From the NCBI GenBank assembly GCA_003151975.1, contig PLZD01000032.1, positions 151,952 through 215,951 on the forward strand: a stretch of DNA of 64,000 bases. Direction: 5' to 3'. The stretch is from Elusimicrobiota bacterium. Lineage in GTDB: Bacteria; Elusimicrobiota; Elusimicrobia; UBA1565; UBA9628. The notes below the pieces were generated by a model that was given only the letters and a program-made list of their open reading frames with translations, was not told the DNA's origin and ran no database searches. This document shows, piece by piece, positions 12,751 to 56,496 of this stretch (position 1 is its first letter; every line of letters begins with the position of its first letter). Position numbers and translations under genes: made by a program.

Positions 12751-12832
12751 ATTATAACGGCCGTCGACGGAGCGTCGTTGGGCCCTAGGGCCCCACGTCA
12801 GGCGGGCATTGGGCCCACTACGTCTTGGGTCC
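12751..12832 (-). promoter_or_regulatory. Three-box promoter H (M50 protease)
   Basis: Minus-strand -10 TATAAT (12756-12751). Boxes are centred at 12790.5 (GGGCCC), 12813.5 (GGGCCC) and 12829.5 (GGGTCC): 37, 23 and 16 bp apart. A second GGGCCC (12780-12785) abuts the proximal box. The distal box overlaps the stop region of the upstream gene. The -35 position reads AACGAC. Confidence 0.7.
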
Positions 12833-31527: not shown

Positions 31528-34500
31528 TCACTCCGTGATTACCGGCGCGGGAGGCGCGTCCGGCGTTTTCTTTGCTTCGGGGGCCGCATTGCTCTTGCGC
31601 TTGAAAATGGTCGGGGAAATTCCGGGGAGACGGCCGGCCGTGCGCCAGAAATAGCCGCCGATGACGACGTTGAGTATGCCGAGGATGGCGAGCACGGCGG
31701 GGTAAGCGGGATTGAGAAAGCCGCTGGCGATCGTCAACAGGGCGTAGCCTGTTGAGATCGCGGCGTTGAAGAAGGCGCCCTGCACGCCGGTCACCTTGCT
31801 GTTCTCGCTGCGCTCGGTGTTGGACATGAGGTAGCTGATGAGGCTGACGAAATTGGGGCCGTTGACGAAGCCGGCGGCCAGCAGGCTCAAGAGCATCGCG
31901 GTCTTGATCGTCAAGAACGGAATCAAAGCGGGCCAGCTCCACACGACGAAGGGCAGCCAGACCGCGACGAAACCCACGCCGGCGCCCTTGATCCAGCCGC
32001 GGTCGGTGATGCGGGTGGCGAGATAGATGAGCCCCGCGGCAGCGGCCATCGCGGCGACCGCGACGCCGACGCCCCCGAGCAAAGTGCCCGCGACGAAAAT
32101 TTTGGTGGCGGCGAACAACCCGGCCAAGGCCACCACGGCGCCCTGGGCGATGCGCGTCGTGTTCACCGTCTTGCCGCCGATCTTAAAGGAGGGGAGCGTC
32201 GTGCGCGCCACGGTCGAGAGCAGGCTGCCGAAGAACAGCGCGCCCAGGAATTGGCCGGCCAGCTCAAGCTTCCCACCCGAGCCCGCGAGGACCTCGGCGA
32301 CGTGCGGAGCGGCGATGAGATACAGCGGATAATACATCAAAGTGCTCAGCGACATGAGTCCGATCGACTTGAGCGAGCGTCCCTGGTAGGCCTTGAGCTC
32401 GGCGCGCGCGGCGGTGAGTTCTGCCTCGCCGGCGGGGCCCTTGGCCTCGAGATCTGAGATCTTTTGCGTCAGCGCGTTCTCGGCGTCGGTGACTTTGGCG
32501 GTCTTGCCCGCGCGCAACGCCTTGTAGCCGTCGGTGCGGGTGATCCAGTAGATCAGCGCGCCGACGATGGGCAGCGGGGCGGTGAGCGAGGAGTGCGCTT
32601 TCAGGAACGCCGCCGCGGCGGCAATCAGCTTGCCGCCCGCTCCGGCAGCCGCCAGCGCCGGCAAGCCCCAGGTGAGTCCCGCGAAGAGTCCGACGGCGAG
32701 GCCGAGCGCCAGCATCGGCTTCCACGACTTCTTGAAGAAATCCTTGGCCTGAGTTTTCAAGGGAACCTTGGCCTGAGCCGGCGCGGCGCCCGCGGCGGGC
32801 GCGCCCTGAGTCAGCTTCGTGTTCGGGATCAAAAGCCACGTGAGAGGCAAAACGATGAGGGCGTTGAGCGCGGCCGCTCCCGCGAAGATCGTAAATGGGC
32901 TCATCATGTCGGCAAACCGGCCGACGTGCGCCCAGATGCCGAGCAGCACCTGCACCAGCGGGAACATCATGAACATCACGCCATTGATGTTGCCGATCTG
33001 CTTGGAAGGGAAAAGCGCGGGCAAAAATGAGCCGCTGGTCGTCATGATGGAAGAGAGCAGGAAGCCCTCCGCCAGCGCGCCGACGAGCAGCGCGCCCATG
33101 CCGACGGGACCGAACAGATGAATCAGGGGAAGCGCCGAGAGCGAGAGGATGCGCAGCGCGGTGTTGATGACCATCGCGTTGCGCGCGCCCATGGTCTTGA
33201 AGATATTTCCCATGATGTTGGCGGCCGCGATGCCGGCCATGGGCGAGAGCGACATGAGGATTCCGTAGCCCGTCCAACCGACCACGGGGACCGCCACGCC
33301 GACGAAAGCCAAAGTCACGAGCATGTAAGCGGCCATGCTGATGACGCTCGGCACGATGTTGCCGAGCAAAGTCTTCACGTTGATCGGATCGTCGGGCCCG
33401 GGAGCCTTCGGGCCCTCCTGGTTCCACTTGCCCTTGAGCCAAGAGAGAAGGCCCGTCGCGCGAGCGGCGACCGTCGGTTGAGCAGGCAAGGGCTTAGCGA
33501 TGGCCTGCGCGATCTCAACGGCGGCGTCGTGCCCCAGCGAATTCCAAACGAAAAGATTGTCGATGCGCGGGTCGGCCGTGCCGCCGACGGCCAGCGCCAG
33601 CGCTCCGGGAGCGCCCCGGGTCATCGCGCTGTCGACGCTCCGGTTTTCGCCGAAGAAATAGTCGCCGACCAGCACGGTCCCGGACGCACGACCCTTCGCC
33701 CCCAGCACGGCCTTGACCCCGTCGGACTTGTCGTACTTCGTGACGAACAGCATCGCGGGGCTGCCGTTGCGCGCGGGCCAAGCCAGGATCTGGCCCTTGA
33801 TGCCGAGCTTCGCGAGAGTCCCCTTGAAATCCGCGGCGGCGTCTTCCAGGTTCACGCCGCCGCGGACGTACAAGGTGTAGGAATAATCGTCGGTCCGGCT
33901 GAATTGACCGTTGTAGAGCTCGGTGCCGAACTTGAAGCGCAAGGTCGACGAGGCCGACTTGAGCAGGGCGAGCTCGTTCTGGGTCCACGGCTCGTTCTCG
34001 CGGTCAATGACGGGCTGGTCTCCTTTATAATGGAAAGCGCGGGCGCCGAAATCGGGAAGGACGCTGAAGCTGGCCTTCTGCTCAGGGGTAAGCGTCGCAA
34101 GCTTGTCTTCGATGCGGCTCTCGCCCGATTCGCGCGAGAGGTAGGGCCTTCCGGTCAAGATCGTGGTCCGCACGCCGGCGTCGGCCATGGCCTTCAGGGC
34201 CGCTCCGGTCTCGACGCTGGCTTTCTCGCCGTGCTTCTCCCAGGTTTCGTCCCAGTCGAAAATGGCGTTCTTGGGCTTGGTCGTAGAAAGCTTGGCGAGG
34301 ATTTCCTGCTTATGCTCTTCTGAAATCGTGGGCAGGCTCACGAGCTTGCCTTTGGCGGCCAGCTCGCGCAGCGCCTGGCGGCGAACCTCGTAGTCCTGCG
34401 CGTCACCGACGGGCTTAACCGTTCCGATCTCTTCCAGCGCGAGCTTGGCCGGGTCGTCGCTGCGGTTGGCGATCGCCTTGACCGCCGACATCCGCTGGGC

Positions 34501-35103
34501 GGAGGGCTTCGTCTTATCGGAGGCGATCGTCTGAAGTTCGCTAACGGAAAGCTGTGAGAGGCCCGAGACCGCGTCCTGCGCGGCGACGACTGAGACCGAA
34601 GCGTCGGATTCTTTCTTGGAACCGGACCAGAACCAGGAGAGTATGCCGCCCTTCGCGTCGCCCTTCGCGCCCTCGATTGCCTCGACGCCGGTGCGCAAAG
34701 TCGTCTCGGCGATCGGCCGGTCGACCGCGCCGCTGCCGGGATTGTTTTGTCCGGCGGTCTCGGGAAGCTGATTGGTCGACGGGGCCTGGGTCAGCCCAGA
34801 AACGGCCGCAGGCAAAACGGGGATGACGGCGTTAGGGCCGATCTGCGATCCGGGGATGGCGACCTCGGGAATTCCGGTCTGCGGTATGCCGGTCTGGAGG
34901 GTCGGAATGCCCGCGCCCGGAATCTCGATGCCGCCCGTCTTGATCGCAGGAAGGTCGAGCGCCGGGATGACCTTGATGTTGAGATTCTTGGGGGCGCCGC
35001 CTTCGAAGTCCGCCGCGACGGCCTGGTAACAGGGAAGGCCGGGGGACGCCACTATGAGGCTGGCGGCCACCAGCGCGGCTGTGAGGCGAGAGGATCGTCT
35101 CAT
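31528..35103 (-). CDS. Exported HAD phosphatase-MFS transporter fusion
   Basis: 1191 residues. Signal peptide MRRSSRLTAALVAASLIVAS followed by PGLPCYQAVAA, nearly the same as in the ATP-grasp fusion at 50.8 kb. Next is a linker of PxLxxPxIxTGxIxxP repeats and helical repeats. A HAD domain begins with AIFDWDETWEKHGE near 281 and continues through TILTGRPYL and VLVGDYFFGENR. From about 590 a 12-helix MFS-like transporter follows (GILMSLSPMAGIAAANIMGN). ATG 35103 is 7 nt after TATAAT. Coupling dephosphorylation to transport is plausible but unproven. Confidence 0.83.
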   Translation of the reverse strand: MRRSSRLTAALVAASLIVASPGLPCYQAVAADFEGGAPKNLNIKVIPALDLPAIKTGGIEIPGAGIPTLQTGIPQTGIPEVAIPGSQIGPNAVIPVLPAAVSGLTQAPSTNQLPETAGQNNPGSGAVDRPIAETTLRTGVEAIEGAKGDAKGGILSWFWSGSKKESDASVSVVAAQDAVSGLSQLSVSELQTIASDKTKPSAQRMSAVKAIANRSDDPAKLALEEIGTVKPVGDAQDYEVRRQALRELAAKGKLVSLPTISEEHKQEILAKLSTTKPKNAIFDWDETWEKHGEKASVETGAALKAMADAGVRTTILTGRPYLSRESGESRIEDKLATLTPEQKASFSVLPDFGARAFHYKGDQPVIDRENEPWTQNELALLKSASSTLRFKFGTELYNGQFSRTDDYSYTLYVRGGVNLEDAAADFKGTLAKLGIKGQILAWPARNGSPAMLFVTKYDKSDGVKAVLGAKGRASGTVLVGDYFFGENRSVDSAMTRGAPGALALAVGGTADPRIDNLFVWNSLGHDAAVEIAQAIAKPLPAQPTVAARATGLLSWLKGKWNQEGPKAPGPDDPINVKTLLGNIVPSVISMAAYMLVTLAFVGVAVPVVGWTGYGILMSLSPMAGIAAANIMGNIFKTMGARNAMVINTALRILSLSALPLIHLFGPVGMGALLVGALAEGFLLSSIMTTSGSFLPALFPSKQIGNINGVMFMMFPLVQVLLGIWAHVGRFADMMSPFTIFAGAAALNALIVLPLTWLLIPNTKLTQGAPAAGAAPAQAKVPLKTQAKDFFKKSWKPMLALGLAVGLFAGLTWGLPALAAAGAGGKLIAAAAAFLKAHSSLTAPLPIVGALIYWITRTDGYKALRAGKTAKVTDAENALTQKISDLEAKGPAGEAELTAARAELKAYQGRSLKSIGLMSLSTLMYYPLYLIAAPHVAEVLAGSGGKLELAGQFLGALFFGSLLSTVARTTLPSFKIGGKTVNTTRIAQGAVVALAGLFAATKIFVAGTLLGGVGVAVAAMAAAAGLIYLATRITDRGWIKGAGVGFVAVWLPFVVWSWPALIPFLTIKTAMLLSLLAAGFVNGPNFVSLISYLMSNTERSENSKVTGVQGAFFNAAISTGYALLTIASGFLNPAYPAVLAILGILNVVIGGYFWRTAGRLPGISPTIFKRKSNAAPEAKKTPDAPPAPVITE

Positions 35104-35110
35104 CCCCATC

Positions 35111-35190
35111 ATTATAAAGGAGGCGCCGTGTTTGCAGTTGGGTCCTAGGGGCACGCGGGACCCGGATTATGGCCCAGTGTTCTTGGGCCC
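35111..35190 (-). promoter_or_regulatory. Three-box promoter F (HAD-MFS operon)
   Basis: Minus-strand -10 TATAAT (35116-35111). Boxes are centred at 35150.5 (GGGGCA, abutting GGGTCC at 35140-35145), 35172.5 (TGGCCC) and 35187.5 (GGGCCC): 37, 22 and 15 bp apart. Further GGACCT- and AGGTCCT-like copies continue to 35214. The -35 position reads AACTGC. The start codon is 7 nt after the -10. Confidence 0.6.
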
Positions 35191-36611: not shown

Positions 36612-37880
36612 TCAGGCGGCTTTCTTGGAACGCGCGCGCGCCTGCGCGCGCGAGATGGCGAACAAGGAGAGCGCCGAGGCGACGGCCTCGGCCAAGTTGC
36701 GCGCGCCGTGGATCAAGTATTGGTCCCGGATGGCGCCCGCGGGGCTTGCGGCGGCCTGAAGGAAGCCCCACGCCGTGAACGCGGCCACGGAGCCGAGGTA
36801 GATGGTCGTGAACGATCTCGAAAAGCCGTGCGTCGGCTGGCCGCGCACGAGAGCGGCCACGTCCGGCGCGAAGACCGCGACAAACAACGCGCCCTTGGCG
36901 ATCTGGATCCCGAGCAGGAGCTTGGCGACCGCCGCCGCGCCCAGATGCGCGGCCAGGAACGCGGGAACGAAGGCCGCGGCCCCGGCGTAGAGCCCCGCGC
37001 TCAGCGCGAGCATCGCGGCCCCAGCGATGGCCGTGGCCCGAATAGCGGGATCGTGGAGCACCTTGTCCGCCAGAAGGCGCAGCCTTGAGGCGCCCGCGAG
37101 ATTTTGCGGAGGCTCATACGCCTTAAGTCCCCCGCGCTTCTCGAGCGACTTGCCGATGACGTAGGGCGCCAGCATGCCGAGCGCGATGAAGGCGTGCATG
37201 ACGCCCCAGAGCGGCTTGCCGAGCACGGTCGCGTTGACCAAGCCCAGCGCCAGCGTGCCGACGGCGCCGAGGATCGCGCGGCCCAGCGGAAAATCCTTCG
37301 CGTTGCCGCGGCGGAAGGCATCGTAGGCCATGGGCAGAGGGAACGCCACCGAGAGCACGTTGGCCGCGTCGTAGCTGAGCGTGTTGACGAACGGGGCCGC
37401 GGCGTGAAAAGCGTGGACGAGCGGAGCCGCGCCGAGCGCCGCGATGGGGAGCGCCGCGCCGAGAACGACGGCGGCGGGCGGGGCTTTCGCGGCGTTATCA
37501 AAACGGCGCGACGATTCGACCCAGCCCGCGGCCGCGTCGGGCGCGTTCGCGGCGGACTCGGGACCGGAAGTCTCGATTGAATTTTTGTCCGCGGAGGGCG
37601 CCCCGAACCGCGCTTGCGGAAGAACCGCGGCAATTTCAGGAGCGGCGACCGGCTGTTCCACGGCGGCGTCGGGCAAAATCGGAAGAGCGGTGGGCCCAAG
37701 CTGTTGCGGCAGAGCCTGCGTCCGCAGGTCCGTGATCCCGATGTCGATGGACGCCTTCGGATTGAGAACGGGGAGGACGGGCTGGTTGACGCGGATCTCG
37801 ACGATGCGTTCGACGGCGCCCGCCGGCCATGAGACGGCCAGCAGCGCGAGGCAAAGGCTCAGGCGCAGAACGCGAGACAT
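36612..37880 (-). CDS. Exported/polytopic membrane protein of unknown family
   Basis: 422 residues. Signal peptide MSRVLRLSLCLALLAVSWPA, then a Pro-rich linker to about 150, as in the other regulon members. About seven to nine hydrophobic segments follow. The stretch VAFPLPMAYDAFRRGNAKDF weakly recalls a PQ-loop (SemiSWEET) repeat, but this is not secure. The ATG is exactly 6 nt after TATAAT and no Shine-Dalgarno is present. Function unknown. Confidence 0.72.
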   Translation of the reverse strand: MSRVLRLSLCLALLAVSWPAGAVERIVEIRVNQPVLPVLNPKASIDIGITDLRTQALPQQLGPTALPILPDAAVEQPVAAPEIAAVLPQARFGAPSADKNSIETSGPESAANAPDAAAGWVESSRRFDNAAKAPPAAVVLGAALPIAALGAAPLVHAFHAAAPFVNTLSYDAANVLSVAFPLPMAYDAFRRGNAKDFPLGRAILGAVGTLALGLVNATVLGKPLWGVMHAFIALGMLAPYVIGKSLEKRGGLKAYEPPQNLAGASRLRLLADKVLHDPAIRATAIAGAAMLALSAGLYAGAAAFVPAFLAAHLGAAAVAKLLLGIQIAKGALFVAVFAPDVAALVRGQPTHGFSRSFTTIYLGSVAAFTAWGFLQAAASPAGAIRDQYLIHGARNLAEAVASALSLFAISRAQARARSKKAA

Positions 37881-44012: not shown

Positions 44013-46859
44013 CTAGGTAGACTTTTTCTTAGACGCGGCGGCCGCCTTCGCGAGCTTGGCCTTCTTCGCGGCCGCGGCTTTCTTCTTCGCGGCCGCCTTG
44101 GCCTTGGCGGCCTTCGTCGCGGGCTTCTTGGGCGTGATCTCGCCGAGCAGCTGCGCTTCGGTCTTGGCGATGCGGTCGAGCGTGCGGATGATGATGCCGC
44201 GAGTCTTGTCCATGTCCTGGTTGGTCACCGTCGTCGGCTGCTTGACCACGTTGTACATGAACTCGACGCCGACCGCGTCGATATGGATCTTCTGCGCGCC
44301 CGAGAAGTAGGGCACCGGGAAGTCCTGGCCCTGCCAGTAGCGCCGGGCGTAGTAGGTGTAGAGCTGGACCTGGATGTCCTTGTCGAGCTTCTGGCGCGAC
44401 TGCGCGGGACCGGTCTTGAAGTCGTAGATGACCGCCTTGCCGTGCGTCGGATCCTTTGGATCGGGCCGGATCGCGACGAAGTCGAACTGGCCGTGCAGGT
44501 GATAGCGGCCTTTCTGAGCTTCCGTGCGCTTCTGGTACTTCTTGAGCGTGAACTCGAAGGGAATCTCGGTGCCGACGATGATTTCGCCTCTATCCTTGGC
44601 AGCCAGGATCATCCGGTACATGCTCACGCCGCGCTGGGTCGACTCGCGCAGCATGCCCTCCGTCGTCTCGCCCTCGGGCATGCCGATGGCCTTGAATTCC
44701 TTGGTGCCGGCGTCCCAGCGGCGCGTGAGCTCGGCCCTGTACTCGGCCTCGGTCGGCCGGTTGCCGATGAGAATCTGAGACACGACCCAATCGTTGGCGG
44801 AGTGGACGACATGGCCGGAGAAGAAGTTGATGTTCTGCTCGGCCTTGTCTTCCTTAATGAGAATCTCCGTCATGTACTGCTGGCGGTCGCGGCGGAAAGA
44901 CGAGATGCGCGAAGCCGAGCCCGAGCGGTCGCCGTCCTGGCTCTCGCGGTTGGCGCCCAGCATGAGTCCCATCGCGTTGTCGGCGAGAGTCGCTCCCTTG
45001 AGGCCGGATTCCTTGGCGAAGTCGAAGTGCGGGTTGGCGGCCTTGAGCGCCGGGTTCTCGCTCAGCACGAGGATGTCGTTGGGGTTCAAGTACTCGCCGA
45101 ACTCGACGCCCATCGCCTTCTTGAGGCGGTCAAAAGAGGCCGCCAAGTCGGTGCGCTGCGCCGTCACGCGGAACCGGCCGTCGGGAAGCTGGTCGAGCGA
45201 GACCTGCGCTTCGATCGCCTGGCTCTTGAGCCATTTCTCAAAACGCGCGACCCACTGGCCGGACTGCGCTTGGGTAACGGTCTTGGCGAATTCGATCTGG
45301 AAACGAACGGCGGGATCCTTACGGGCTGATCCCTCGCGGCGCGTCAGGCCCGGGAACTCGTCGGCGGCCTCGCGGATGGCGGGCTGGGCAATTTCCTTGG
45401 CGTCCTTCGGGGCGATGCCGATCTCCTCGGACGCCTTCTGCGCGGCGTCGCGCAGGACCTCGGCGGCGTTCGGCGAGAAGCCGAGCACATCGACGGGAGT
45501 CACATTGCCGCCCTTGGGCAGCATTGAGACCACGGCGCCGTTGTCGGTCACGGCCATAAAGCGGTTGGGCATCAGCATGCTGAGCTGGTAGGAGGACATC
45601 TGGCGGATGAGCTTCTCGCGCACCGAGCCGGGAGCGGAGTACGGCTTGCGCGAGAACGCGATAAAGTACACGCCGGTGCGCTGGAGCTTGGCCATGTCGG
45701 TCAGGAACTCGCGCGGCACGGGGCCGTCGAAGAGGTCCATGTCGACGAAGACGGCGCGCGGCTTGAGGAAAGAGAGCGGCGTGAGCGCGCCCTCGGCCTT
45801 GACCGCGAGCGGCTCGCGGGCCTTGACCGGCTCGGGCTCGGGCACGGCGTCCTTGCCGTGGGCTTCCTTGTATAGATCGATGTAGGACTTAAACTTGATG
45901 ACGCGCACGAGCGTCTTGGCGTTGACGGGCTCGTCGTTGGCGTGCCAGACCTTGCGGTCTTCCTCGAGACGGTCGATGAACATCTGGCGCAGCTGCTTGA
46001 TGGGCGCCTTGAGCTGATAATCCGGAACGACGCCCTTCAAGTCGTCGCGGTCGAGCTGGCCGAGCGGCTTATTGAAGGCCGCGGTGATCGGCGTCGTCCG
46101 TCCAAAAACGTTCTCGCCGCGGATGACGACGTCGATCTCGACGCCCTTGGCGAAGACGCCCCAATAATCCTTGCTGCCGTCGCCGCGCAGGCGCTTCATG
46201 TTGCCGTAGATGGCCTTGGAAGGATCCACCGCCAGCAGCGCCGTCTTGGCCGCGAGATTGGAGAAGCTTAAAGTCGGCCGGCGCGGAGTCTCGCCATTGT
46301 TGTCGTCGCCGCCGTTGTTGCCGCCGTTTCCGCCCTTGCCGCCTTTGTCGCCGCCGTTTCCATTGCCGCCGCTCGGAGGCAGCGGCTTGTAAGTCGGAGG
46401 CTCGAAGGAAGGCTCCAGGACGCGGCCGCCGTCGCCGGATTCTATGGAAGATTGCGCATGCAGGCCGTCGAAGGACTTTACGCCCGCGTCGTAGCCGGCC
46501 GACTCGCCCTTGGACGAGGCTTCAGTAAAGGAGCCGGCGGTGGAATCGAGCGTGGAGAGCGTGCCGGCCTGAGCCCCGGGCTGGGCTTCGGCTTTCAGAT
46601 CGGTCGCCGTGGGAATCTCGAGCGCGGCGCCGGTGCGTCCGGAAAGGACTTCGGCGGAAGGTAGGATGGAGAGGTCGAGACGAGGCAGCGTCAGGTTGAG
46701 CGCGCCGCCGGGCAGCGTGGGCAGGGCTTCCGTCTTGACGACGGGGCCGCTTTCGAGAGGCATGACCCGCGAGAGGGCCAGGTCCAACGCCGCGGCCGGC
46801 AGAGAGCCGGTGACGGCCAGCGCGAGGACGGCTGCGGCGAGAGTCGATTGCCTCTTCAT
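44013..46859 (-). CDS. Exported HAD-like plus PD-(D/E)XK nuclease-like protein with histone H1-like tail
   Basis: 948 residues from ATG 46859 (signal peptide MKRQSTLAAAVLALAVTGSL). A Gly/Asn-rich linker with GGNGNGGDKGGKGGNGG follows. A HAD-like domain has AVFVDMDLFDGP near 373. Near 780-830 a RecB/Cas4-type nuclease fold is indicated by EIIVGTEIPFEF, LHGQFDFVAIRP, AVIYDFKTG and IQVQLYTYYARRYW. The last 40 residues are a Lys/Ala-rich tail (KAAAKKKAAAAKKAKLAKA) like histone H1, suited to DNA binding. A signal peptide on such a protein is surprising. It is encoded 7 bp after a related HAD-like gene, in one operon. Confidence 0.78.
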   Translation of the reverse strand: MKRQSTLAAAVLALAVTGSLPAAALDLALSRVMPLESGPVVKTEALPTLPGGALNLTLPRLDLSILPSAEVLSGRTGAALEIPTATDLKAEAQPGAQAGTLSTLDSTAGSFTEASSKGESAGYDAGVKSFDGLHAQSSIESGDGGRVLEPSFEPPTYKPLPPSGGNGNGGDKGGKGGNGGNNGGDDNNGETPRRPTLSFSNLAAKTALLAVDPSKAIYGNMKRLRGDGSKDYWGVFAKGVEIDVVIRGENVFGRTTPITAAFNKPLGQLDRDDLKGVVPDYQLKAPIKQLRQMFIDRLEEDRKVWHANDEPVNAKTLVRVIKFKSYIDLYKEAHGKDAVPEPEPVKAREPLAVKAEGALTPLSFLKPRAVFVDMDLFDGPVPREFLTDMAKLQRTGVYFIAFSRKPYSAPGSVREKLIRQMSSYQLSMLMPNRFMAVTDNGAVVSMLPKGGNVTPVDVLGFSPNAAEVLRDAAQKASEEIGIAPKDAKEIAQPAIREAADEFPGLTRREGSARKDPAVRFQIEFAKTVTQAQSGQWVARFEKWLKSQAIEAQVSLDQLPDGRFRVTAQRTDLAASFDRLKKAMGVEFGEYLNPNDILVLSENPALKAANPHFDFAKESGLKGATLADNAMGLMLGANRESQDGDRSGSASRISSFRRDRQQYMTEILIKEDKAEQNINFFSGHVVHSANDWVVSQILIGNRPTEAEYRAELTRRWDAGTKEFKAIGMPEGETTEGMLRESTQRGVSMYRMILAAKDRGEIIVGTEIPFEFTLKKYQKRTEAQKGRYHLHGQFDFVAIRPDPKDPTHGKAVIYDFKTGPAQSRQKLDKDIQVQLYTYYARRYWQGQDFPVPYFSGAQKIHIDAVGVEFMYNVVKQPTTVTNQDMDKTRGIIIRTLDRIAKTEAQLLGEITPKKPATKAAKAKAAAKKKAAAAKKAKLAKAAAASKKKST

Positions 46860-46866
46860 GGGAACC

Positions 46867-49194
46867 TCAGTTGCCCGACTTCTTTTTCTTATCCTTCGTG
46901 GGCGTCTTCTTCGGCGCAGCCTTCTTCTTCGCGGCGCCGGCGGAGGCCTTGTTGTTCTTGGCTTCCTGCTCTTCCCAATGATCGAGGAACTCCTTGTCGG
47001 ACTGCATCTTCTCAATGGTCGCGGTGACCTCGGCCGAGTGCGACTCGATCTGCTCGGTGGTCTGCGTGCGGCTCAGGTCCCGGGTGTTGTAGTGGAAGAC
47101 GACCTTGACGCGCGGATCGGCCTCGTCGTTGACGTACCACTTGCCGTCGGCGCGCTTCTCGCCGTAGCCTTGCAGCATCGCGTGGGCGACGAGGTTGACC
47201 TCGATGTTGTCGTCGAACTCGGTCTCGTAGGGCTCCTTGCCCGTGCGGTAGACGTGCGCGACGAGGATGTTGCCCTTGTCGTCTTGGTCGAGCTCGGTGC
47301 GGGCCGGCCGGACGTACACGACGTAGCGGCGGCCGGTGTAGGGCGACTGGTACTCGATGTTGATCGAGTTCTTGGAATCCCGGGCGAGGTTGATCATCTT
47401 GCCGACCACGTTCTCGCTGACGTTGTGCGGGAAGTCCTTAAAGTTGCGGTGGTAGTAGTTGCGCAGCCAGACCTTGCTGGTCTCGAGATAGCCCTTCTGC
47501 AGCGCCTTCCAGCGCGGCGACATGCGCGCGGCGTCCATCTCGGGCGTTATGCGGACCCCCATGTTCCTGGGTTGATACCACATGCGCGTCAGCACGTCGA
47601 GCGAGGCTTCGAGCGTCGCTTCGTGATACTGGCCCTTGCGGATCATGTGATAGATGCGGCCCATGATATCGTACATCAGGATGCCGCGGTAGAAGCCGAG
47701 ATCGCGATAGTAGCGGGAGTGCGAGGCCGGCATGTGATAGCCGCCGCCGCTGCCGCCGCCGCCTTCCTTCTTGAAATCGCCGAATTTGGCGCGCGCGTCG
47801 AGCCACTCGGTGTAGCTGCGGAGCTGGTTGCGCTGCACGACGACTTTCTCGAAGGCGTTCTTGCCGAGCACGGCGCCCAGGGCCGCTTCGACGTCCTCGG
47901 CGCCCTTGGTGCCGTGAATGTAGAAGCCCTTGCCCGAGACCGATTCCTCGGAGCCGAGGGTCTTAAGGAAGTTGGCGGCCTTCGTCGAGTCCGCCAGGAC
48001 GAGCACGTGCTCGGCCTTGAGATCGTCGCGCAGCTCGGGGAACTGGGAGAAGATGCCCTTGAAGATGCGGCCCGTGTTGAGCTTGAGCGCGGTCGACTGC
48101 GTGAAGAAGTAGCGGCGGCCGTTGGCCTCCTCGACGACTTCGATCTTGTACTTCAATCCCTTGGCCTTAAGCGCCGCATTGTAGACGCGCGCGAAGCCGG
48201 ACGAATCAAAGTCTTTGTCTTTCGGCAAATCCGCACCGTAGATCAGCGGGTTCTCGGACGAGGGCATGCCGAACTCCTTGGGCATTCCCGTAAAGCCGAT
48301 CTTCGCCTCGACGCCCCCAGTAATCTTGCGAAAAGTCTCGATCGTGTTCTCGGAGAAGCCGGGCTGATCCTCGATGAGCGGCTTGGGATTCTCGGCCTTG
48401 GAGCTGTGCGCGGCGACGCGCGCGCCGTTGTAGCTGACGACGACGACCGGGTTGCCCGTGCGAATCTTGAGCTTCGAGATCAGCACCGAGTCCGCCGAGT
48501 TCTCGCCCTTGTCGGCGCGCGGCGTGACGAAGACCACGTGGACGCCGTTGTCGAGCAAGGTCTCGATGTGCGAGACCATCTTATCGGAGGCCGGTCCCTT
48601 GAAAGTGTCGAGGATCATGACGACGCGGGGCTGGAGTCGGTTGAGCTTGCCGCCGTCATCGTTGTTATTGCCGCCGCCGTTGTTGGCGCCGCCGCCGTTG
48701 CCGCCGCCCGTGCCGCCGGGGGTCTGGGCGCCGCCGCCGGCGTCGCCGGCCGAGGCCTTGAGGCCGTCGAAGGTCTCGTTCGAGGAAGCTTCGACGTTGG
48801 CGCCGGGCTTGGCCGAAGCGTCATCGAGATTCTTAACCGTATCGAGCGCGGTCGGGGCTGGAGCCGCGAGGCCCGCGCCGTCGTTCTTGAGAAGACCCTG
48901 AATCTCGGGAGCCTGCATCAGGCCCGTAGGAAGCGCGCCGGGCGTATCTAAGGAGAGGACCTTGATGTCGCCGATCTGAGGAACCCCTAAAATCGAAACC
49001 CCGCCGATGGCGGCGGGGTCTGCGATTTTCAGGTTCTGCGGGCCGACCGGGACAATCTCCCGGAGCCCGGAGCCGGGGAGGGAATAATTCCCCCCGCCGA
49101 CCTCGATGCCGCCCGCACGCATGGGCAGGCACGCGAGGCATACGACGCACATCGAAAAAACGGTCCGCCACAGGTCGGAGATCTTGCGCTTCAT
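46867..49194 (-). CDS. Exported HAD-like protein with lysine-rich tail
   Basis: About 775 residues. Start 49194 (MKRKISDLWRTVFSMCVVCL) was chosen because an AGAGG precedes it and the longer frame begins inside the -10 box. Linker with a Gly/Asn-rich run (about 170-185). The HAD-like domain begins PRVVMILDTFKGPAS near 193; motif I lacks the second aspartate, so phosphatase activity is doubtful. A large middle region (RYYRDLGFYRGILMYDIMGR) is of unknown type. The lysine-rich end (KKKAAPKKTPTKDKKKKSGN) parallels its partner at 44.0-46.9 kb. Confidence 0.72.
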   Translation of the reverse strand: MKRKISDLWRTVFSMCVVCLACLPMRAGGIEVGGGNYSLPGSGLREIVPVGPQNLKIADPAAIGGVSILGVPQIGDIKVLSLDTPGALPTGLMQAPEIQGLLKNDGAGLAAPAPTALDTVKNLDDASAKPGANVEASSNETFDGLKASAGDAGGGAQTPGGTGGGNGGGANNGGGNNNDDGGKLNRLQPRVVMILDTFKGPASDKMVSHIETLLDNGVHVVFVTPRADKGENSADSVLISKLKIRTGNPVVVVSYNGARVAAHSSKAENPKPLIEDQPGFSENTIETFRKITGGVEAKIGFTGMPKEFGMPSSENPLIYGADLPKDKDFDSSGFARVYNAALKAKGLKYKIEVVEEANGRRYFFTQSTALKLNTGRIFKGIFSQFPELRDDLKAEHVLVLADSTKAANFLKTLGSEESVSGKGFYIHGTKGAEDVEAALGAVLGKNAFEKVVVQRNQLRSYTEWLDARAKFGDFKKEGGGGSGGGYHMPASHSRYYRDLGFYRGILMYDIMGRIYHMIRKGQYHEATLEASLDVLTRMWYQPRNMGVRITPEMDAARMSPRWKALQKGYLETSKVWLRNYYHRNFKDFPHNVSENVVGKMINLARDSKNSINIEYQSPYTGRRYVVYVRPARTELDQDDKGNILVAHVYRTGKEPYETEFDDNIEVNLVAHAMLQGYGEKRADGKWYVNDEADPRVKVVFHYNTRDLSRTQTTEQIESHSAEVTATIEKMQSDKEFLDHWEEQEAKNNKASAGAAKKKAAPKKTPTKDKKKKSGN

Positions 49195-49234
49195 CATTTC
49201 CTCTCTTGCTCGGGTCATGCTGTGATCGTGCTCC

Positions 49235-49368: not shown

Positions 49369-50754
49369 CTATGCATTTCCGACGGGGCTCGCGTGAGCCA
49401 GCGGGTGCGCCTCGAGCCATGAGATGAGCGCAAGCGCTACGAGGTACGTGTTCTTGTAAAGCGCGAAGTCGAAAGCGCCGATGTTGTCGGCGGCGGAATG
49501 GATGATCGAGAAAACCAGGTCCTCGGGACCGCTAAAAATGGTCATGCCGGGAATCGGGGGCCGCTGCCAGCGAAAGCTCGACGAGTCGGCGTCGCCGCCG
49601 TTGAGATGCGCGCGATTCAAGACGAGTTGCTCGCTGGGGCCGCGGCTCTTGTTGGCTTGCGCCACCGCCGCGTCGGCAGCCGCGAGCAAGACCTCGTCGG
49701 AATGATTCTCCCCCTGTCCCGGATCGTTGTCCCAGGAATTCGTGTCGCCGCCCTTGATCGCGATCGTGTCGTAGTTGATGTTGCCTTCGATCAGAGCGCG
49801 CTGGTCGGGCGTCAAAGACCGCAGGAAGCGCTTCGAGCCAACCAAGCCTTCTTCCTCGCGCGCGAACGTCGCGAAGACGTAGGTCGCCTCGGTCTTCACG
49901 TCCTTGATGGACTGGTAGAGATGTGAGACCATGGTCGTGCCGGTCCAATTGTCGATCACGCCGTCGCCGACTTCCACCTTGTCGTTATGCGAGGTGATCA
50001 CGATGATCCGCTCTTTTTGGCCGGGCTTGGGAGTCCCCTTCTTGACCACGAAAATATTATGCGAGACGCTTCCATCCTGGCCGGGAACTTCCTGGACCTG
50101 GACTTCGCCGTCGCGGTTGAAATCGGGCTGCTTAGCGGCGGACGCGGCGGGATCGTACTTGGCGCCGCCTTTCTGGAACATCCGGATGGCGATCTGCTCG
50201 CGCTCGGGATTGGTCTTGGGCGAGGCCTTCACGTTGTTTTCCATCTCCAAGTCGGTCGGCGCGCCTTGCGTCCCGCTGGTCTTTTTCTTTGAGACGACGA
50301 CGCCGGGCTCGTCGCCCGGGGCCAGGACTCCGAAATATTCCGAGATCGCGTCGCCGACGTGCGAGGCGATGCCCGCGTCGAAAGTGGCGTCGAGCGTGGC
50401 GGCTTGGTTCGCTCCGGGAGCTTCGAGCTTCGCGCTCGTCGACTCGAGAGAGGCCAGCGGCGCGGGCGTTTGCTGGACCGCAGGCGCGATGAGTTGAGCG
50501 GCGGGAGAGATCGCGGCGAAATTTTCGACTGGCAGAGTCGGAAGCTGCGGGATGGACGCGTCGAGCGTCGTGATCGGTGAGAGTCCCGTCGGAAGTTGCG
50601 GGAGAACCGGCAGATTCTGCGTCGGTACGACGGGCGCTACAACCGCGGGACGCGTCTTGATGCCGTCGTAAAGCGAGACGGCCCCGGCGTTGAGCGGCGA
50701 GAGAGCTAGGACGGCGGCGATGAAGCTGGCCGACGCTCGGCGAAGCGTTTCCAT
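49369..50754 (-). CDS. Exported M28 family metallopeptidase
   Basis: 461 residues with signal peptide (MetGluThrLeu start) and a linker of PVLPQLP-like repeats to about 150. The peptidase has the M28 ligands in ITSHNDKVEVGDGVIDNWTG near 251-268 (His and bridging Asp), the catalytic pair in FAREEEGLVGSKRF near 298, NINYDTIAIKGG, and the last ligand in FSIIHSAADNIG near 418. M28 enzymes are mostly aminopeptidases. The ATG lies exactly 6 nt after TAGACT. It is transcribed from a three-box promoter. Confidence 0.88.
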   Translation of the reverse strand: METLRRASASFIAAVLALSPLNAGAVSLYDGIKTRPAVVAPVVPTQNLPVLPQLPTGLSPITTLDASIPQLPTLPVENFAAISPAAQLIAPAVQQTPAPLASLESTSAKLEAPGANQAATLDATFDAGIASHVGDAISEYFGVLAPGDEPGVVVSKKKTSGTQGAPTDLEMENNVKASPKTNPEREQIAIRMFQKGGAKYDPAASAAKQPDFNRDGEVQVQEVPGQDGSVSHNIFVVKKGTPKPGQKERIIVITSHNDKVEVGDGVIDNWTGTTMVSHLYQSIKDVKTEATYVFATFAREEEGLVGSKRFLRSLTPDQRALIEGNINYDTIAIKGGDTNSWDNDPGQGENHSDEVLLAAADAAVAQANKSRGPSEQLVLNRAHLNGGDADSSSFRWQRPPIPGMTIFSGPEDLVFSIIHSAADNIGAFDFALYKNTYLVALALISWLEAHPLAHASPVGNA

Positions 50755-50760
50755 GGCCTC

Positions 50761-50842
50761 AGTCTATCACTACCCGCGGAATGCCTATAGAATCGAAGGG
50801 CCCAACAACGGCGGGGTAATGGACCTAGGCTTTCTTGGGCCT
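50761..50842 (-). promoter_or_regulatory. Three-box promoter C (M28 peptidase)
   Basis: Minus-strand -10 TAGACT (50766-50761), 6 nt before the ATG. Boxes are centred at 50800.5 (GGGCCC), 50823.5 (GGACCT) and 50839.5 (GGGCCT): 37, 23 and 16 bp apart. The distal box overlaps the stop of the upstream gene. The -35 position reads TATAGG. Confidence 0.7.
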
Positions 50843-53800
50843 TAGGGCTTGCGGCCGGTGAGGCGCGCGCGGAACGCTTCGAGCGTCTTGACGAAGGAGG
50901 CCCAGCGCGTCTGCGGCTTGGCGCCGCCTTCTTCGCCGAGAGGCTGGATCTCGAGCGCGAGGTTCTTGTGCGGGTCGGCGCCGAGTTTCTCCAGCGCTTC
51001 CTGCGACGAGATGCCGTCCGCGTGGAGGAACGCGACGCGGTCGTTGTCCTTGAAATCGACGACGTAGCCGGGCTTCTTCTCAAAGATCGCCTGCAGTCCC
51101 GCGGCCTGCGCCTCGGGCGAGAGGCCGATGTAGGAGACTTTCCCCTCGCGGTCGGAGAAGACGAACACGCCGGCCAGGTGCTTCAAAGGCTCGGGGCTCT
51201 GATAAGCGACCGCCGGCACGCCGAGCGCCAGCGCGTAGAGCATCTCGGCCTCATCGACGCCGGTCACCGCGGTGTTCCAGTGCACGACGTAAGAGCCGCC
51301 AGGGCGCAGATTGACCTCGAGCAGGCGGGGTCCGCGGGTTCCGGTCTTGCCTTCGATGTGCAGGGCGCCGTCCTTGACGCCCAGCGCGCGCGCGGCTTTC
51401 GCCGCGAACTCCATCGCGTCCTTCTGCTGTTCCTTAGTGAGCTGCACGCTCGGCAGGAAGGCGCCGGTGCTCTTCATGTTGAGCTGGCGCTTCTCGCCGG
51501 GCTTCAAGGTCTTCTTGTCGTCGCGGACCGGCGTGTTGTCGGTGATCGAGCCGTAGATGATTTTCCCATTCTGCAGACCGATGTTGGCGTCCCATTCGTG
51601 GCCCGTCAAATACTCTTCGAGAACGAACTCGCGGCCTTGCTCGAAGATGGTGTCCTTCGAAGCGGCGAGATCCGCATTGTTCTGGTCGTACACGCGCAGG
51701 GCTTCTTCGCGCTCGACGACACCGGTGAACTGGGCTTCGGCGCCCTTGGTGGGCTTCAAGACGGCTGGGAACGGGAACTCGGGATCGTTGACGGCGGCTT
51801 CCATGTCGGCGCGGCTCTTGATCAGGCGGTGGGCGACCTTGTCGACGCCGGCCTTCTCCATCGCGTCGCGCGCGGCGGCCTTGTCGCGCGCGCTCTCGGC
51901 GGTCGCCACCGAGTGGTACGGCAGGCCCATCGCCTCGGCGATCTGGGCCGTGAGGACGATGTCGTCCTCCCAGTAAGTCGTGATGCCGTCGAGCTTGCCG
52001 TTCTTCTTGATCGAGCGCTGCAGTTTCTTGCGCGCCGCGCCCAACGCCTCTTCAGGCTTGGTCGTGTCGACCGCGATGAACTCCGAGACGAGATCCTTCG
52101 CCCAGTTGTCCTGCGAAGGGCGGTGGAAGATCGCGGTGCGGACCCAGTCCTTGAACTTGCCGAAGCCCGTCAGGCCCTTGTCGACGAGCACGACCTTGAC
52201 GCCGAGCTGCTTTGCGCGCTCGAGGAAAAACTTTTTGTTGGCGTAGCCGGCGCCGACCAAAACCATGCGGCGGCCGTTCATCGCGTCGCGGCGCGCGCGG
52301 GAGAGCGCGGTCGCCATCCAAGCGCGAGAATGTTCCCCAGCTCTCTCTGGGTAAAACGCGTCGAGCTGCCACTGGCCGCCCGAGTCGTGATCGTTGACCT
52401 CGATGATGTAAGGAACCGGCTTGCCGTTGTGGAACTCGACCATCACGTCGAGCCCGATATAATCGGTCTGCGTCTGGAGGCCCTCGCCGTCGGCGCGATT
52501 GCGTGATTCCTCGCTCTTGGCGATGGCGTCGATCGCGTTGGCCCCGATGCGCTCGAGCTCGGCCGCGAAAGCCTTGGCCTCGGCGTCGGTCTTGAGCATG
52601 CCGTGCTGAAGGCGCAGTTCGCGGATGACTTCCTCGGTCGGCATGATCGCGGCGGAATCGCGCGGGTCCTTGGCCTCGCCGTTGGTCGGCTTGCCCCAAG
52701 TGCCGGCGCGGGCGAACATCCCCTTGCCCACACCCTTGCCCCACGGCGCGCGGGCGGCGAGCACGCGGAAGTTCCAGTCCTTGCGCTCCCACGGCTGCGA
52801 CGTCGCGAGCTCGGCCGGCGACAGGGCGTCGATCGTGACCTGTTTGCCTTCGAGGTAGCTAAAGGAGCCGTTGCCGGAATAATCCTTGGTCCGGAAATAA
52901 AGGGCCGGAGGCGTGATGCGCTGCTCGACGAGCACGACTCCGTCGTTGCTCATCAAGGAATCGTTCTGCAGCGCGATCGCGTGGTCGACCATCGTGTCGA
53001 TCTGTTCGCGGCGGAAGATGCCGACGCCGATGCCGGAGTGGAAATTGGGGCCGGAAGGCTTCACCACGACCTCGTCGCCTTTGTAGGTCTCGAGGAACTT
53101 CGAGAGGACTGCCTTGACCTCGGCGCGCGAGGCGGGCATCGGCGTGACCTGCATCGCGGGCGTCGAGGCCTGGCCGTTGAGCGGGTGCGCGGCCATCAGG
53201 AAGGCCAAGGTCGCGGGCACCGCGACGCCTTGAGCGGCGAGCATGAGGCGCGTCAGGAGCTTGTCGTTGGTGATTTTTTCCAGCGCGACGGAGTTGGACA
53301 TCGGCGTCTCGAGGTTGGTCTCGAGCGGCACGCCGTCGTCGCGGCCGTTGGCGCCCATCGTGTAGAAATTGGCGAAGTAGTGGACGGGGCGCGGGTCCTT
53401 GTATTCCACGATCACGGGCTTGCCGGCCTTGAAGGTCAGGCCCTTGGTCATGTAAAGCCGCGTCTTGCCGTCGTGGTCGGTCTCCTGGGTCAGCCAAGAG
53501 CGGTCGATGACGAGGTGCACGTCGCCCTCGGACTGGCGCGCGCCCTCCTGAGCGATGGCGAGCTTGTAAACCGAGGCGGGCGCCAGGATCGCGACGGTGG
53601 GCCGGCGCGGATCTGTTTTGCCCGCCACGGTCTCCGTCGTATAAGCGGGCAAACCCATTTTCTTGAGATTCGTCTCGAGCTTCGCGTAAGCCTTTTCCAT
53701 CTCGCCATCGGGCGAGGGCAAGGTCTGGCGCGTCGGGTGGCCGATCTGCTTTTTGATGAAGGGCAGAGAGCCGAGGTAGAGGGCCGCAAATCCCATGAGA

Positions 53801-55845
53801 GCGATGGTCACGACCTTCATCGGGCCGTTGGCGCCGACCATCGAGAAAAGCAGGCCGCCGGGCTGGGAGTGCTCGAAGAGCTTTTCGAAGAAGAGGCCGC
53901 CGAGGCCCGCCGCCACGACCTCGGGGGTCGTGATCAGGCTCCAGATGTTCTCCTCTTCGGCCTTGGCCTTCGGGTCCTCGTCGATGGCCGTCTGCAGCAG
54001 CGACTGCATCTTGGCCTGGATCGGCGCCAGCATGAGCTTCATCAGAAGGACCAGCGGGAGCGCCACGAAGATCGAAGGGTACGCCCAGAGGCCGATCGAA
54101 GGGATGAAGGCCAGCGAGGCCAGCGCCGAGAGCCCGGCGATGACCTTGAACTCGCCGTGCTTCTTCTCTAGCTTGGCCGCGTGCTTCATCAAAAGCTTGG
54201 AGGCCAGCAGGCCGCCGAGATAAGTCGCCGAGAGCACCATGCCGTTGCCCATGTTTTTGGCGCCGAGAATGTCGACCGCGAAGGTCGGCATGACCACGAA
54301 GAACAGAGCGTCTTCAAGGAACTGCTCGGCCATCGACATGATCACGCGAATGCGGACCTTGCCGTTGGCCCAGATCGCCGCGACGGTGCGCTTCACGCGG
54401 CCGGGCGTGTCGCGCAGGAGGTCCCACGAGGTCTTCAAAGCGGACTTGAACTTAGCCGGGAGGTCCTTGAGCTTGAAGCTCGTCCCCGGCACGGTCTCCT
54501 CTCCGGCGATCTGCATCTTTTGGTACATCCACGAAGCCGTTCCGAGTGCCGCGGCCAGCATGACCATGCCGGCCTTGGCGCCGGTCCCGGGGCCGACGAT
54601 GAAATCGAGCTTGTCGGCGAAGAAGCCGAAGACCCACGGGATCACGAGCAGCGCGCCGTAGCGCACGAACAAGAACTGGAAGAAGGCCTGCTGGCGCTGG
54701 GCCTTGTCGGGGAAGATTTTCGCGGCGCCGCCCGCGTCGATGTCGACGAGGTGGTTGTGCGCGACGACCAGAGCGTTGAGGCCGACCAAAGTCAGGAAGA
54801 GCGCCGTCGGCATCCCGGTGCCCAGAGCCAGCGCGAGCACGCCGATCGCGCCGTAAATCGCCGCCCGCGTGCGGCCCGCGGTCGTGAGAACTTTCTTCAT
54901 GCTGTTGCGCTTGACGATCTCGCCGGAGACCAGCGAGGCGACGCCCAAAGTGACGTAGTGCACCATGCGCACCGTGCCGGTGAAGGCGGTGGAGCCGGTG
55001 AGCGCCTGGACCAGCAGAGGCATCGAGGTCATGTAGATCGCGATGCCGACGATGAAAACGATCTGGCCCATCAAGTAGGCCTTCTGCGTCTTATTGTAGG
55101 AAGAGAAATCGAGGATCGACTTGACCTTCTCCCAGGCCGACTTCTTGGCCGCGGCCCCGGACGCCTGCGGCGCCGGGACGACCGTGGGCTTCGCGGTCTC
55201 GGAGGGCCGGCTCGGTTTGAGGTCGTTGGGAACCCGGTTCTCGGAACCCGCGACTTCGTCGACCGAGGCGCGGCCTTTGCGGCGGATGCGGTCGAAGATC
55301 CAGGACAGCACGCCGGTCTTCTCGGCCTTGGTGTCGGAAAGAGTCTTGGCGATCTCGCCGTCGGTCACCGCGCTGATATTGGCGGCGCCCTTGGAGTCGC
55401 TTCCCTTAATAGTGCTTATAGTGCCCTTAGGCGTCTCGGCTTTAGCTGTCCCTTCGGCGACCGGGGCGGAGAGGTTCGCGGCGTTAACCGAGGCCGCAGT
55501 GGGCTCGGCCTGAGGAACGGCCGAATTCTGAATCTGAGCGGCGGGAAGTGAAATCCGGCCGGGAGTCGTCAGGGCGCCCGCCTGGACGATTTCCGACGCG
55601 GGGTTGCTGACGTCGATGCCGGTGTTGACCGTAACGCCGGTTACGCCGGTATTCGTGATTCCTAGGGCAGGAATGTTGAGGTTGTCGATCTTAGGCGTCG
55701 CGATCGGCGTCGGCCCGTTCGGTCCCTGCGGGGCGGTATCTTTGATCTCGCCCGCGAGAGCCTGATAGCAGGGAAATCCTGGAGAGAGGACGATCAAAGC
55801 CGCAACAATAACGGTTGCGACGATCTTCTTCAATCTCTGCGCCAT
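50842..55845 (-). CDS. Giant fusion: MFS transporter plus tandem ATP-grasp ligase
   Basis: 1667 residues from ATG 55845, 6 nt after TACACT. Signal-like N-terminus (IVATVIVAALIVLSPGFPCY) and linker to about 200. MFS-like domain at about 210-730 (ALTGSTAFTGTVRMVHYVTL, MSMAEQFLEDALFFVVMPTF). ATP-grasp 1 at about 830-1190 with DEVVVKPSGPNFHSGIGVG and VPYIIEVNDHDSGGQWQLD. ATP-grasp 2 at about 1195-1640 with MVLVGAGYANKKFF, FPAVLKPTKGAEAQFTG, REFVLEEYLTGHEWDANIG and RLLEVNLRPGGSY. The tandem layout recalls carnosine synthase and L-amino-acid ligases. A dipeptide or peptide ligase joined to its exporter is a fair inference; substrates are unknown. Confidence 0.85.
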   Translation of the reverse strand: MAQRLKKIVATVIVAALIVLSPGFPCYQALAGEIKDTAPQGPNGPTPIATPKIDNLNIPALGITNTGVTGVTVNTGIDVSNPASEIVQAGALTTPGRISLPAAQIQNSAVPQAEPTAASVNAANLSAPVAEGTAKAETPKGTISTIKGSDSKGAANISAVTDGEIAKTLSDTKAEKTGVLSWIFDRIRRKGRASVDEVAGSENRVPNDLKPSRPSETAKPTVVPAPQASGAAAKKSAWEKVKSILDFSSYNKTQKAYLMGQIVFIVGIAIYMTSMPLLVQALTGSTAFTGTVRMVHYVTLGVASLVSGEIVKRNSMKKVLTTAGRTRAAIYGAIGVLALALGTGMPTALFLTLVGLNALVVAHNHLVDIDAGGAAKIFPDKAQRQQAFFQFLFVRYGALLVIPWVFGFFADKLDFIVGPGTGAKAGMVMLAAALGTASWMYQKMQIAGEETVPGTSFKLKDLPAKFKSALKTSWDLLRDTPGRVKRTVAAIWANGKVRIRVIMSMAEQFLEDALFFVVMPTFAVDILGAKNMGNGMVLSATYLGGLLASKLLMKHAAKLEKKHGEFKVIAGLSALASLAFIPSIGLWAYPSIFVALPLVLLMKLMLAPIQAKMQSLLQTAIDEDPKAKAEEENIWSLITTPEVVAAGLGGLFFEKLFEHSQPGGLLFSMVGANGPMKVVTIALMGFAALYLGSLPFIKKQIGHPTRQTLPSPDGEMEKAYAKLETNLKKMGLPAYTTETVAGKTDPRRPTVAILAPASVYKLAIAQEGARQSEGDVHLVIDRSWLTQETDHDGKTRLYMTKGLTFKAGKPVIVEYKDPRPVHYFANFYTMGANGRDDGVPLETNLETPMSNSVALEKITNDKLLTRLMLAAQGVAVPATLAFLMAAHPLNGQASTPAMQVTPMPASRAEVKAVLSKFLETYKGDEVVVKPSGPNFHSGIGVGIFRREQIDTMVDHAIALQNDSLMSNDGVVLVEQRITPPALYFRTKDYSGNGSFSYLEGKQVTIDALSPAELATSQPWERKDWNFRVLAARAPWGKGVGKGMFARAGTWGKPTNGEAKDPRDSAAIMPTEEVIRELRLQHGMLKTDAEAKAFAAELERIGANAIDAIAKSEESRNRADGEGLQTQTDYIGLDVMVEFHNGKPVPYIIEVNDHDSGGQWQLDAFYPERAGEHSRAWMATALSRARRDAMNGRRMVLVGAGYANKKFFLERAKQLGVKVVLVDKGLTGFGKFKDWVRTAIFHRPSQDNWAKDLVSEFIAVDTTKPEEALGAARKKLQRSIKKNGKLDGITTYWEDDIVLTAQIAEAMGLPYHSVATAESARDKAAARDAMEKAGVDKVAHRLIKSRADMEAAVNDPEFPFPAVLKPTKGAEAQFTGVVEREEALRVYDQNNADLAASKDTIFEQGREFVLEEYLTGHEWDANIGLQNGKIIYGSITDNTPVRDDKKTLKPGEKRQLNMKSTGAFLPSVQLTKEQQKDAMEFAAKAARALGVKDGALHIEGKTGTRGPRLLEVNLRPGGSYVVHWNTAVTGVDEAEMLYALALGVPAVAYQSPEPLKHLAGVFVFSDREGKVSYIGLSPEAQAAGLQAIFEKKPGYVVDFKDNDRVAFLHADGISSQEALEKLGADPHKNLALEIQPLGEEGGAKPQTRWASFVKTLEAFRARLTGRKP

Positions 55846-55851
55846 AGGGTT

Positions 55852-55932
55852 AGTGTAACGGAATTCCGCGATTAATCCAGGGGTCGAAGGTCCCACGGGA
55901 CGAGGACAATGGTCCTAAGCTACCGTAGGCCT
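55852..55932 (-). promoter_or_regulatory. Three-box promoter B (MFS/ATP-grasp fusion)
   Basis: Minus-strand -10 TACACT (55857-55852), 6 nt before the ATG. Boxes are centred at 55891.5 (GGTCCC), 55913.5 (GGTCCT) and 55929.5 (AGGCCT): 37, 22 and 16 bp apart. The -35 position reads CTGGAT. Confidence 0.65.
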
Positions 55933-55938
55933 AATTGT

Positions 55939-56496
55939 TTAAGGGCGGTTAAGGCCGTCGAACGAGCCTTCAAACCCTTGAAGCCTGCCGACGGTATCGT
56001 ACATGTGCACCGTCTCTTCGTGGGTGATGCGCCGGGAAGGAGCTTTGTGCTCCTCGCCTGGCAGCACGCCGGCGTCCTGGTTGACCTCGAAGGTCACCGA
56101 GGAGTGGATTTTGACCTTGATCATCGCGAACGGATGCGTGATCATCTGGGCGGCGAAGTCGCCGTGGGGCGGGATTTCTTTGTAGAAAATCACGAGCTTG
56201 TTCTTGTCGAGGGGATCGGGCATGGTCACGATGTCGATCTGATAGCCGGCCTTGTTGCGCACGCCGAGGAAGACGGCGACGACCATCTCGCGGCTGAAAT
56301 CAACCTTGGGCTCCTGCGCCTGCGCGCCGGAGTGCTCCTTCCAGAGCTCTTTCCACTGCTTCTCGGACTTAACGACGATGGTCTTGTGTTCGCAGATGGC
56401 GCTGGTCTGACCTCTGAGAGCTTCATTCTGCCACTGCTGGGCGACCGACGGAATTGCGGCGAGGAGGGCTGCGGCGACGAGTACGATCCGGATCAT
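55939..56496 (-). CDS. Exported PrcB-domain protein
   Basis: 185 residues with signal peptide MIRIVLVAAALLAAIPSVAQ; AAGGAG lies about 8 nt before ATG 56496. The pattern KQWKELWKEHSG, VDFSREMVVAVFLGVRNKAGYQIDIV and VTFEVNQDAGVLPG matches the C-terminal domain of PrcB, named from a spirochaete protease complex. It may be an accessory or inhibitor for one of the exported proteases in this regulon. It is driven by its own three-box promoter. Confidence 0.72.
   Translation of the reverse strand: MIRIVLVAAALLAAIPSVAQQWQNEALRGQTSAICEHKTIVVKSEKQWKELWKEHSGAQAQEPKVDFSREMVVAVFLGVRNKAGYQIDIVTMPDPLDKNKLVIFYKEIPPHGDFAAQMITHPFAMIKVKIHSSVTFEVNQDAGVLPGEEHKAPSRRITHEETVHMYDTVGRLQGFEGSFDGLNRP

Follow-up and report, generated by a model that had tools for sequence, protein, structure and literature searches.

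A putative MFS transporter joined to two predicted ATP-grasp ligase modules in a single Elusimicrobiota protein

The analysis of a 64,000-nucleotide stretch of Elusimicrobiota DNA (the window; G000:C57:151952-215951) reveals a single gene (50842..55845, minus strand) whose 1667-aa product carries a leader, a linker, a major facilitator (MFS) domain, ATP-grasp module 1, and ATP-grasp module 2 of the L-amino-acid-ligase (LAL) type. The likely role of the fusion is to synthesize and transport a small peptide-like molecule. By analogy with known ligase and exporter pairs, the protein may more specifically be a membrane-tethered two-step peptide or amide synthetase with a dedicated transporter, a reading that we hold tentatively, at a little short of even confidence. 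The literature searched for MFS-ligase fusions or for ATP-grasp proteins in Elusimicrobiota returned nothing useful, in keeping with the remark of an earlier note on this DNA that no described family is known to have an MFS and two ATP-grasp modules in this architecture.

One open frame and its orthologues

The frame runs on the minus strand from an ATG at 55845 to a stop at 50842-50844 without an internal stop, and it has the top codon log-odds among all genes called in the window. A longer start at the GTG at 55896 is possible, and ATG 55845 agrees with the start of a conserved leader. The earlier note had described one 1667-residue chain with an MFS-like domain and two ATP-grasp modules, which is borne out by the reading frame and by the orthologues, and all four of the motifs it quoted (VVVKPSGPN, IIEVNDHDSGG, AVLKPTKGA, and LLEVNLRPGG) were found in the protein; its domain layout, however, had overlooked the N-terminal leader and the linker of about 200 aa that precede the MFS.

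Orthologues were sought in 97 relatives, and their loci were re-read for open frames. Frames with the MFS and both modules are open in G051, G053, G047, G045, G030, G033, G041, G039, G028, and G050, and longer chains with an MFS_1 or class A MFS region together with both modules occur at L049 (G044), L050 (G055), L062 (G066), and L156 (G057), which brings the fusion to 14 genomes besides that of the window, spread over families f1, f2, f3, and f5. The search for the same fusion in relatives, which the earlier note had proposed, thus returned single uninterrupted three-part frames in at least 14 other genomes, and this rules out two genes joined by a sequencing error. The ligase half is about 38-50% identical to its orthologues. 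In G045, the aligned part of locus L012 was recorded as holding one TAG, but a 1652-aa frame in L041 is open; the G037 orthologue is split into several frames. In family f5 the chain continues into CAAX-protease-like and/or sigma-70 domains, in one open frame (L062 and L156). Huge proteins have been reported to be plentiful in Elusimicrobiota (PMC11573180).

The MFS is missing from three orthologues, L064 and L066 of family f11 and L059 of family f1, all of which begin with a leader-like stretch and carry the two ATP-grasp modules. In a midpoint-rooted tree, family f11 branches off deepest and L059 sits within MFS-bearing rows, a placement which points to at least one probable loss of the MFS; at the base of the tree, midpoint rooting fits either gain or loss of the MFS.

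Two unrelated ATP-grasp modules

Module 2 (50926..52269, minus strand; about residues 1193-1640) is clearly predicted to be an L-amino-acid-ligase unit by its domains, its modelled fold, and its conserved catalytic residues. In the window protein, PF18130 (ATPgrasp_N, 3.6e-11) is followed by PF13535 (ATP-grasp, 3e-8), both above the curated cut-off; LAL_C2 (PF18603) went undetected there and lies above its cut-off in the orthologues L049, L050, L062, and L156. PDB sequence matches of module 2 include BacD at 7.8e-16 and BL00235 at 1.5e-9. An AlphaFold2 model of residues 701-1667 was built with 22 sequences (pLDDT 85.1, pTM 0.88). In a Foldseek search of its module 2 against the PDB, BacD was the top match (3vmm, E 8.9e-25), BL00235 took ranks two and three, and RizA took rank seven. 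BL00235 (3vot) and RizA (4wd3) share the fold of module 2 (TM-score to target 0.83 and 0.77, respectively) and the ATPgrasp_N, ATP-grasp, and LAL_C2 layout seen in the orthologues, whereas the solved chains of about 390-410 residues hold one module and have no MFS. Across the 22 sequences K1322, K1364, H1496, E1498, N1512, and R1514 are invariant, R1514 being the Arg that follows the ExN metal motif, E1510 is nearly so, and E1417 is also conserved. The likeness to L-amino-acid ligases put forward in the earlier note therefore holds for module 2.

Module 1 (52270..53745, minus strand; residues 701-1192) is an ATP-grasp of unnamed type, as judged from its modelled fold and conserved residues. 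No Pfam family scored above its cut-off in the window protein and 21 members, the best being ATPgrasp_ST at 0.0014 in the window protein (18.3 bits against a cut-off of 31.4) and 5e-5 in the best of the 21 members, and a profile search of the PDB gave chance matches alone. Modelled by itself (pLDDT 89.7), module 1 gave 309 PDB matches at E <= 0.001, with D-Ala-D-Ala-ligase-type Ddl first at 1.0e-9, and the solved structures nearest to it in fold, at 1.0e-9 and weaker, are those of Ddl, RimK, and tubulin tyrosine ligase. These enzymes share its ATP-grasp fold and residue order at 10-16% identity and a TM-score to target of about 0.5-0.6, and no sequence-profile link to them was found in the PDB. 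The canonical order is complete, running from NDK (K862) through VKPSG (K929), R1027, and GLDxM (D1133) to ExN (E1149 and N1151), and all of these lettered residues are invariant. Structure prediction and fold search of the ligase half thus return both modules as ATP-grasps, and the loss of catalytic residues that the earlier note had raised as a possible refutation was not found, the invariant residues being retained in both. Inactive, pseudo-ATP-grasp modules were rejected on this ground.

The two modules do stand side by side, as the word "tandem" in the earlier note implied, but they are not duplicates: BLASTP of module 1 against module 2 gave E = 1, with no detectable relation, and a recent tandem duplication of one module was therefore rejected. 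Of 295 genomes of the phylum searched with a profile, 20 contain module 1, all with strong matches, in effectively one copy per genome (the several matches in G008 and G037 are pieces of one gene region each) and within the MFS-ligase protein family. In a scan of GTDB contigs, run with module-1 patterns only, 25 of 25 relatives belonged to Elusimicrobia or to metagenome-assembled genomes labelled "bacterium," many of them from groundwater. Because this ATP-grasp type lacks a Pfam entry, the substrate of module 1 would represent a new specificity.

The MFS domain and its other fusion partners

The MFS domain (53746..55125, minus strand; about residues 241-700) shows 12 helices by inspection, against only 10 hydropathy segments at a fixed threshold. 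The "full MFS-like domain" of the earlier note finds its footing in the orthologues and the topology, whereas the window region alone is divergent, with no Pfam MFS_1 match and only TIGR00900 at 2.1e-5 from NCBIfam. Among the orthologues, MFS_1 (PF07690) is above its cut-off in L062 (1.7e-16) and L050 (1.3e-10) and borderline in L049 (3.2e-8; 33.3 against 33.4 bits), and the MFS of these Pfam-matching orthologues is only distantly like the class A MFS. In 15 of 15 class A sequences, with loop limits set by eye, the K+R density is 0.13-0.20 in the loops expected inside and 0.00-0.03 in those outside, a bias which argues for an MFS with both termini inside. Together with the need for ATP, this charge pattern suggests that the ligases would lie on the cytosolic side.

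Transporter and ligase parts also meet elsewhere in the clade. A search of Elusimicrobiota with the C37 protein of the window's own genome found a second class of chain (class B), made up of a leader, one LAL unit, and a C-terminal MFS, as open frames of 1042-1229 aa in G065, G053, G047, G033, and G048; PF18603 is above its cut-off in L161, L163, and L164, and PF07690 is so in L161 and L164. This LAL-MFS fusion is independent of the MFS-ligase chain and has the parts in reverse order. C37 itself (G000:C37, L055:8729-12589) presents a third arrangement, with a leader, an LAL unit, a domain of about 200 aa, and a multi-pass C-terminus that looks MFS-like but has no Pfam match, so its MFS label is weaker. 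The same genome encodes a class-B-like LAL without an MFS (L073:11582-13372) and a separate LAL-Ddl chain (C51). The ~200-aa domain of C37 recurs in ORFs of about 5000 aa in many relatives, and an open frame of 17755 aa (G057:C5, L159) contains an LAL-like match.

Since ligase and transporter functions occur in one chain in two orders, a coupling of ligation to transport is favored. The proposal of the earlier note that synthesis and export are combined in one chain gains from these independent reverse-order fusions and loses from L059, L064, and L066, which do without an MFS, and from the fusion of MFS domains to HAD (window 31528-35112, minus strand, with related long frames in many relatives) and to M48 (window 12818-17791, minus strand). 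The MFS is thus a common fusion partner in this clade, and fusion alone is no proof that the product is the transported substrate. The MFS may instead anchor the ligases in the membrane or act as their sensor, as could be argued from its fusion to these enzymes and to a kinase-like one (G000:C43, L155:3689-7381, a single chain with MFS, thymidylate-kinase-like, APH, and DUF2252 domains), from the degenerate canonical motif A, and from its dispensability in some orthologues. Its transmembrane segments, however, keep many invariant residues across distant families, beyond what an anchor needs, and we regard this alternative as rather unlikely.

Neighborhood and promoter motif

The gene lies in a cluster conserved in family f1. 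A small, exported-looking PrcB_C-domain protein (55939..56496, minus strand; PF14343, 1.8e-9) is the conserved upstream neighbor, and downstream follow an M28 peptidase with a signal-like leader (49369..50754, minus strand; PF04389, 3e-17), a protein with a leader that is HAD-like by inspection and has no Pfam match (46867..49197, minus strand), and a PD-(D/E)XK domain protein with a leader (44013..46859, minus strand; PF12705, 6.6e-11). No bacA-, bacB-, or bacC-like (anticapsin-type) genes were seen near the MFS-ligase gene, and its neighbors are hydrolase-like.

Upstream of the MFS-ligase gene, a three-box promoter motif, GGCCT-N11-GGACCATT-N13-GGGAC (55890..55931, minus strand), recurs in the same register at the M28 peptidase and HAD-like genes (those at 49369 and 46867). 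The window holds three matches against 0.42 expected, and none of 100 shuffles reached three, an enrichment that is partly circular because the motif was drawn by eye from these same promoters. Genome-wide, a loose-spacing version gave 128 matches against 84 for a reversed control, too weak a difference to count a regulon. The "three-box regulon" of the earlier note is therefore plausible for the three window genes that share the motif and unsupported across the genome.

Comparison with known systems and proposed function

In bacilysin synthesis, BacD joins L-Ala to anticapsin and BacE exports the bacilysin (PMC9147277). Module 2 resembles BacD (YwfE) in both fold and sequence, and where a separate exporter serves BacD, the Elusimicrobiota protein would hold an exporter-type domain and a ligase in one chain that also carries a leader and a further ATP-grasp module unrelated to the LAL one. 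By this analogy, the MFS-ligase chain is best read as a new variation on the BacD and BacE type of pair. Modules 1 and 2 would act in sequence: one would activate a carboxylate as an acyl-phosphate and couple it to an amine, and the LAL module would add an amino acid to that product or supply the first amide. With the ligases facing the cytosol, the site of ATP, the MFS would carry the small peptide-like product across the membrane, most likely to the outside, in the way that BacE exports bacilysin made by BacD. The dipeptide nature of the product, its secretion, and the direction of transport are all putative. Carnosine synthase (CARNS1), to which the tandem layout had been likened, is an ATP-grasp enzyme that has an extra half at its N-terminus, and it serves as a lead only.

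Transport could also run inward, with the MFS importing an amino acid, peptide, or amine that the fused ligases trap by joining it. LplT-Aas is a fusion of the MFS-ligase kind that works by such vectorial acylation, and chain C2 of the window's own genome, with MFS, acyltransferase, and AMP-binding domains, is of this kind. The adjacent M28 peptidase gene, with its signal-like leader and shared promoter motif, would suit uptake as well. Like the Elusimicrobiota protein, the LplT-Aas type has its ligase on the same chain as an MFS transporter, but that ligase is AMP-forming while the Elusimicrobiota ligases are ATP-grasps. Pfam found no acyltransferase or AMP-binding domain in the window protein, and its MFS has no homology to that of the LplT-Aas type at a useful E-value. 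Moreover, the NCBIfam family that the MFS matches best, though weakly, is TIGR00900, whose members are H+ antiporters; this leans toward export, and we judge uptake-coupled ligation unlikely. It is improbable that the ligase half modifies a macromolecule, such as a protein tail or a peptidoglycan or lipid precursor, instead of making a free small molecule: two of the three enzymes nearest in fold to module 1 do modify proteins and the genome has its separate LAL-Ddl chain, but the closest likeness of module 2 is to enzymes that ligate free amino acids, and an MFS partner suits a small molecule.

Returning to the two-step synthetase with its own transporter, such natural fusions of a transporter and an amino-acid ligase are a pointer to a peptide-like metabolite produced by a phylum with hardly any cultured members. 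They make it straightforward to test whether synthesis is channelled into transport, and the presence of the same parts in reverse order within the clade makes this coupling testable by comparing architectures.

Leader and linker

The N-terminal leader (55753..55845, minus strand; residues 1-31) is Sec-signal-like, with the motif (S/A)PGxxxYxxxA, and is followed by a low-complexity linker without a hydrophobic segment (55126..55752, minus strand; about residues 32-240). The P, G, Y, and A of the motif are invariant in 13 of 13 aligned SPG-type leaders, an invariance partly built in by the choice of the rows with the same pattern. A leader profile matched about 14 of the genome's ORFs at E <= 0.003.

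A Sec-like leader conflicts with ligases that the MFS charge pattern and the need for ATP would place in the cytosol, and the same tension appears in other leader proteins. It is conceivable, though very improbable, that the leader-plus-linker proteins of these Elusimicrobiota, among them ATP- and GTP-dependent enzymes (ATP-grasp, GGDEF) and MFS fusions, follow a targeting route not yet described, by which enzymes that depend on nucleotides end up inside a membrane compartment or on its outer face, in which case the MFS-ligase product would be made away from the bulk cytosol.

Ten window genes, all on the minus strand, combine a Sec-like N-terminus and a Pro/Leu/Ala-rich linker with unrelated domains (11182-12741, 12818-17791, 22587-25631, 29769-31523, 31528-35112, 36612-37880, 44013-46859, 46867-49197, 49369-50754, and 50842-55845). 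Besides the MFS-ligase, their domains are M50, M48 with MFS, two GGDEF, HAD, HAD with MFS, PD-(D/E)XK, and M28. Two GGDEF domains (1.4e-31) follow the Sec-like leader of the protein encoded at 22587-25631 (minus strand), a GTP-dependent enzyme whose N-terminus is of the export type. Elsewhere in the genome, a leader is joined to HEAT repeats, a cation-efflux transporter, and ZT_dimer (G000:C33, L153:806-2776), with the same tension between leader and topology, and another leader protein carries an animal-haem-peroxidase domain (G000:C68, L146:1123-4779; 4.8e-55).
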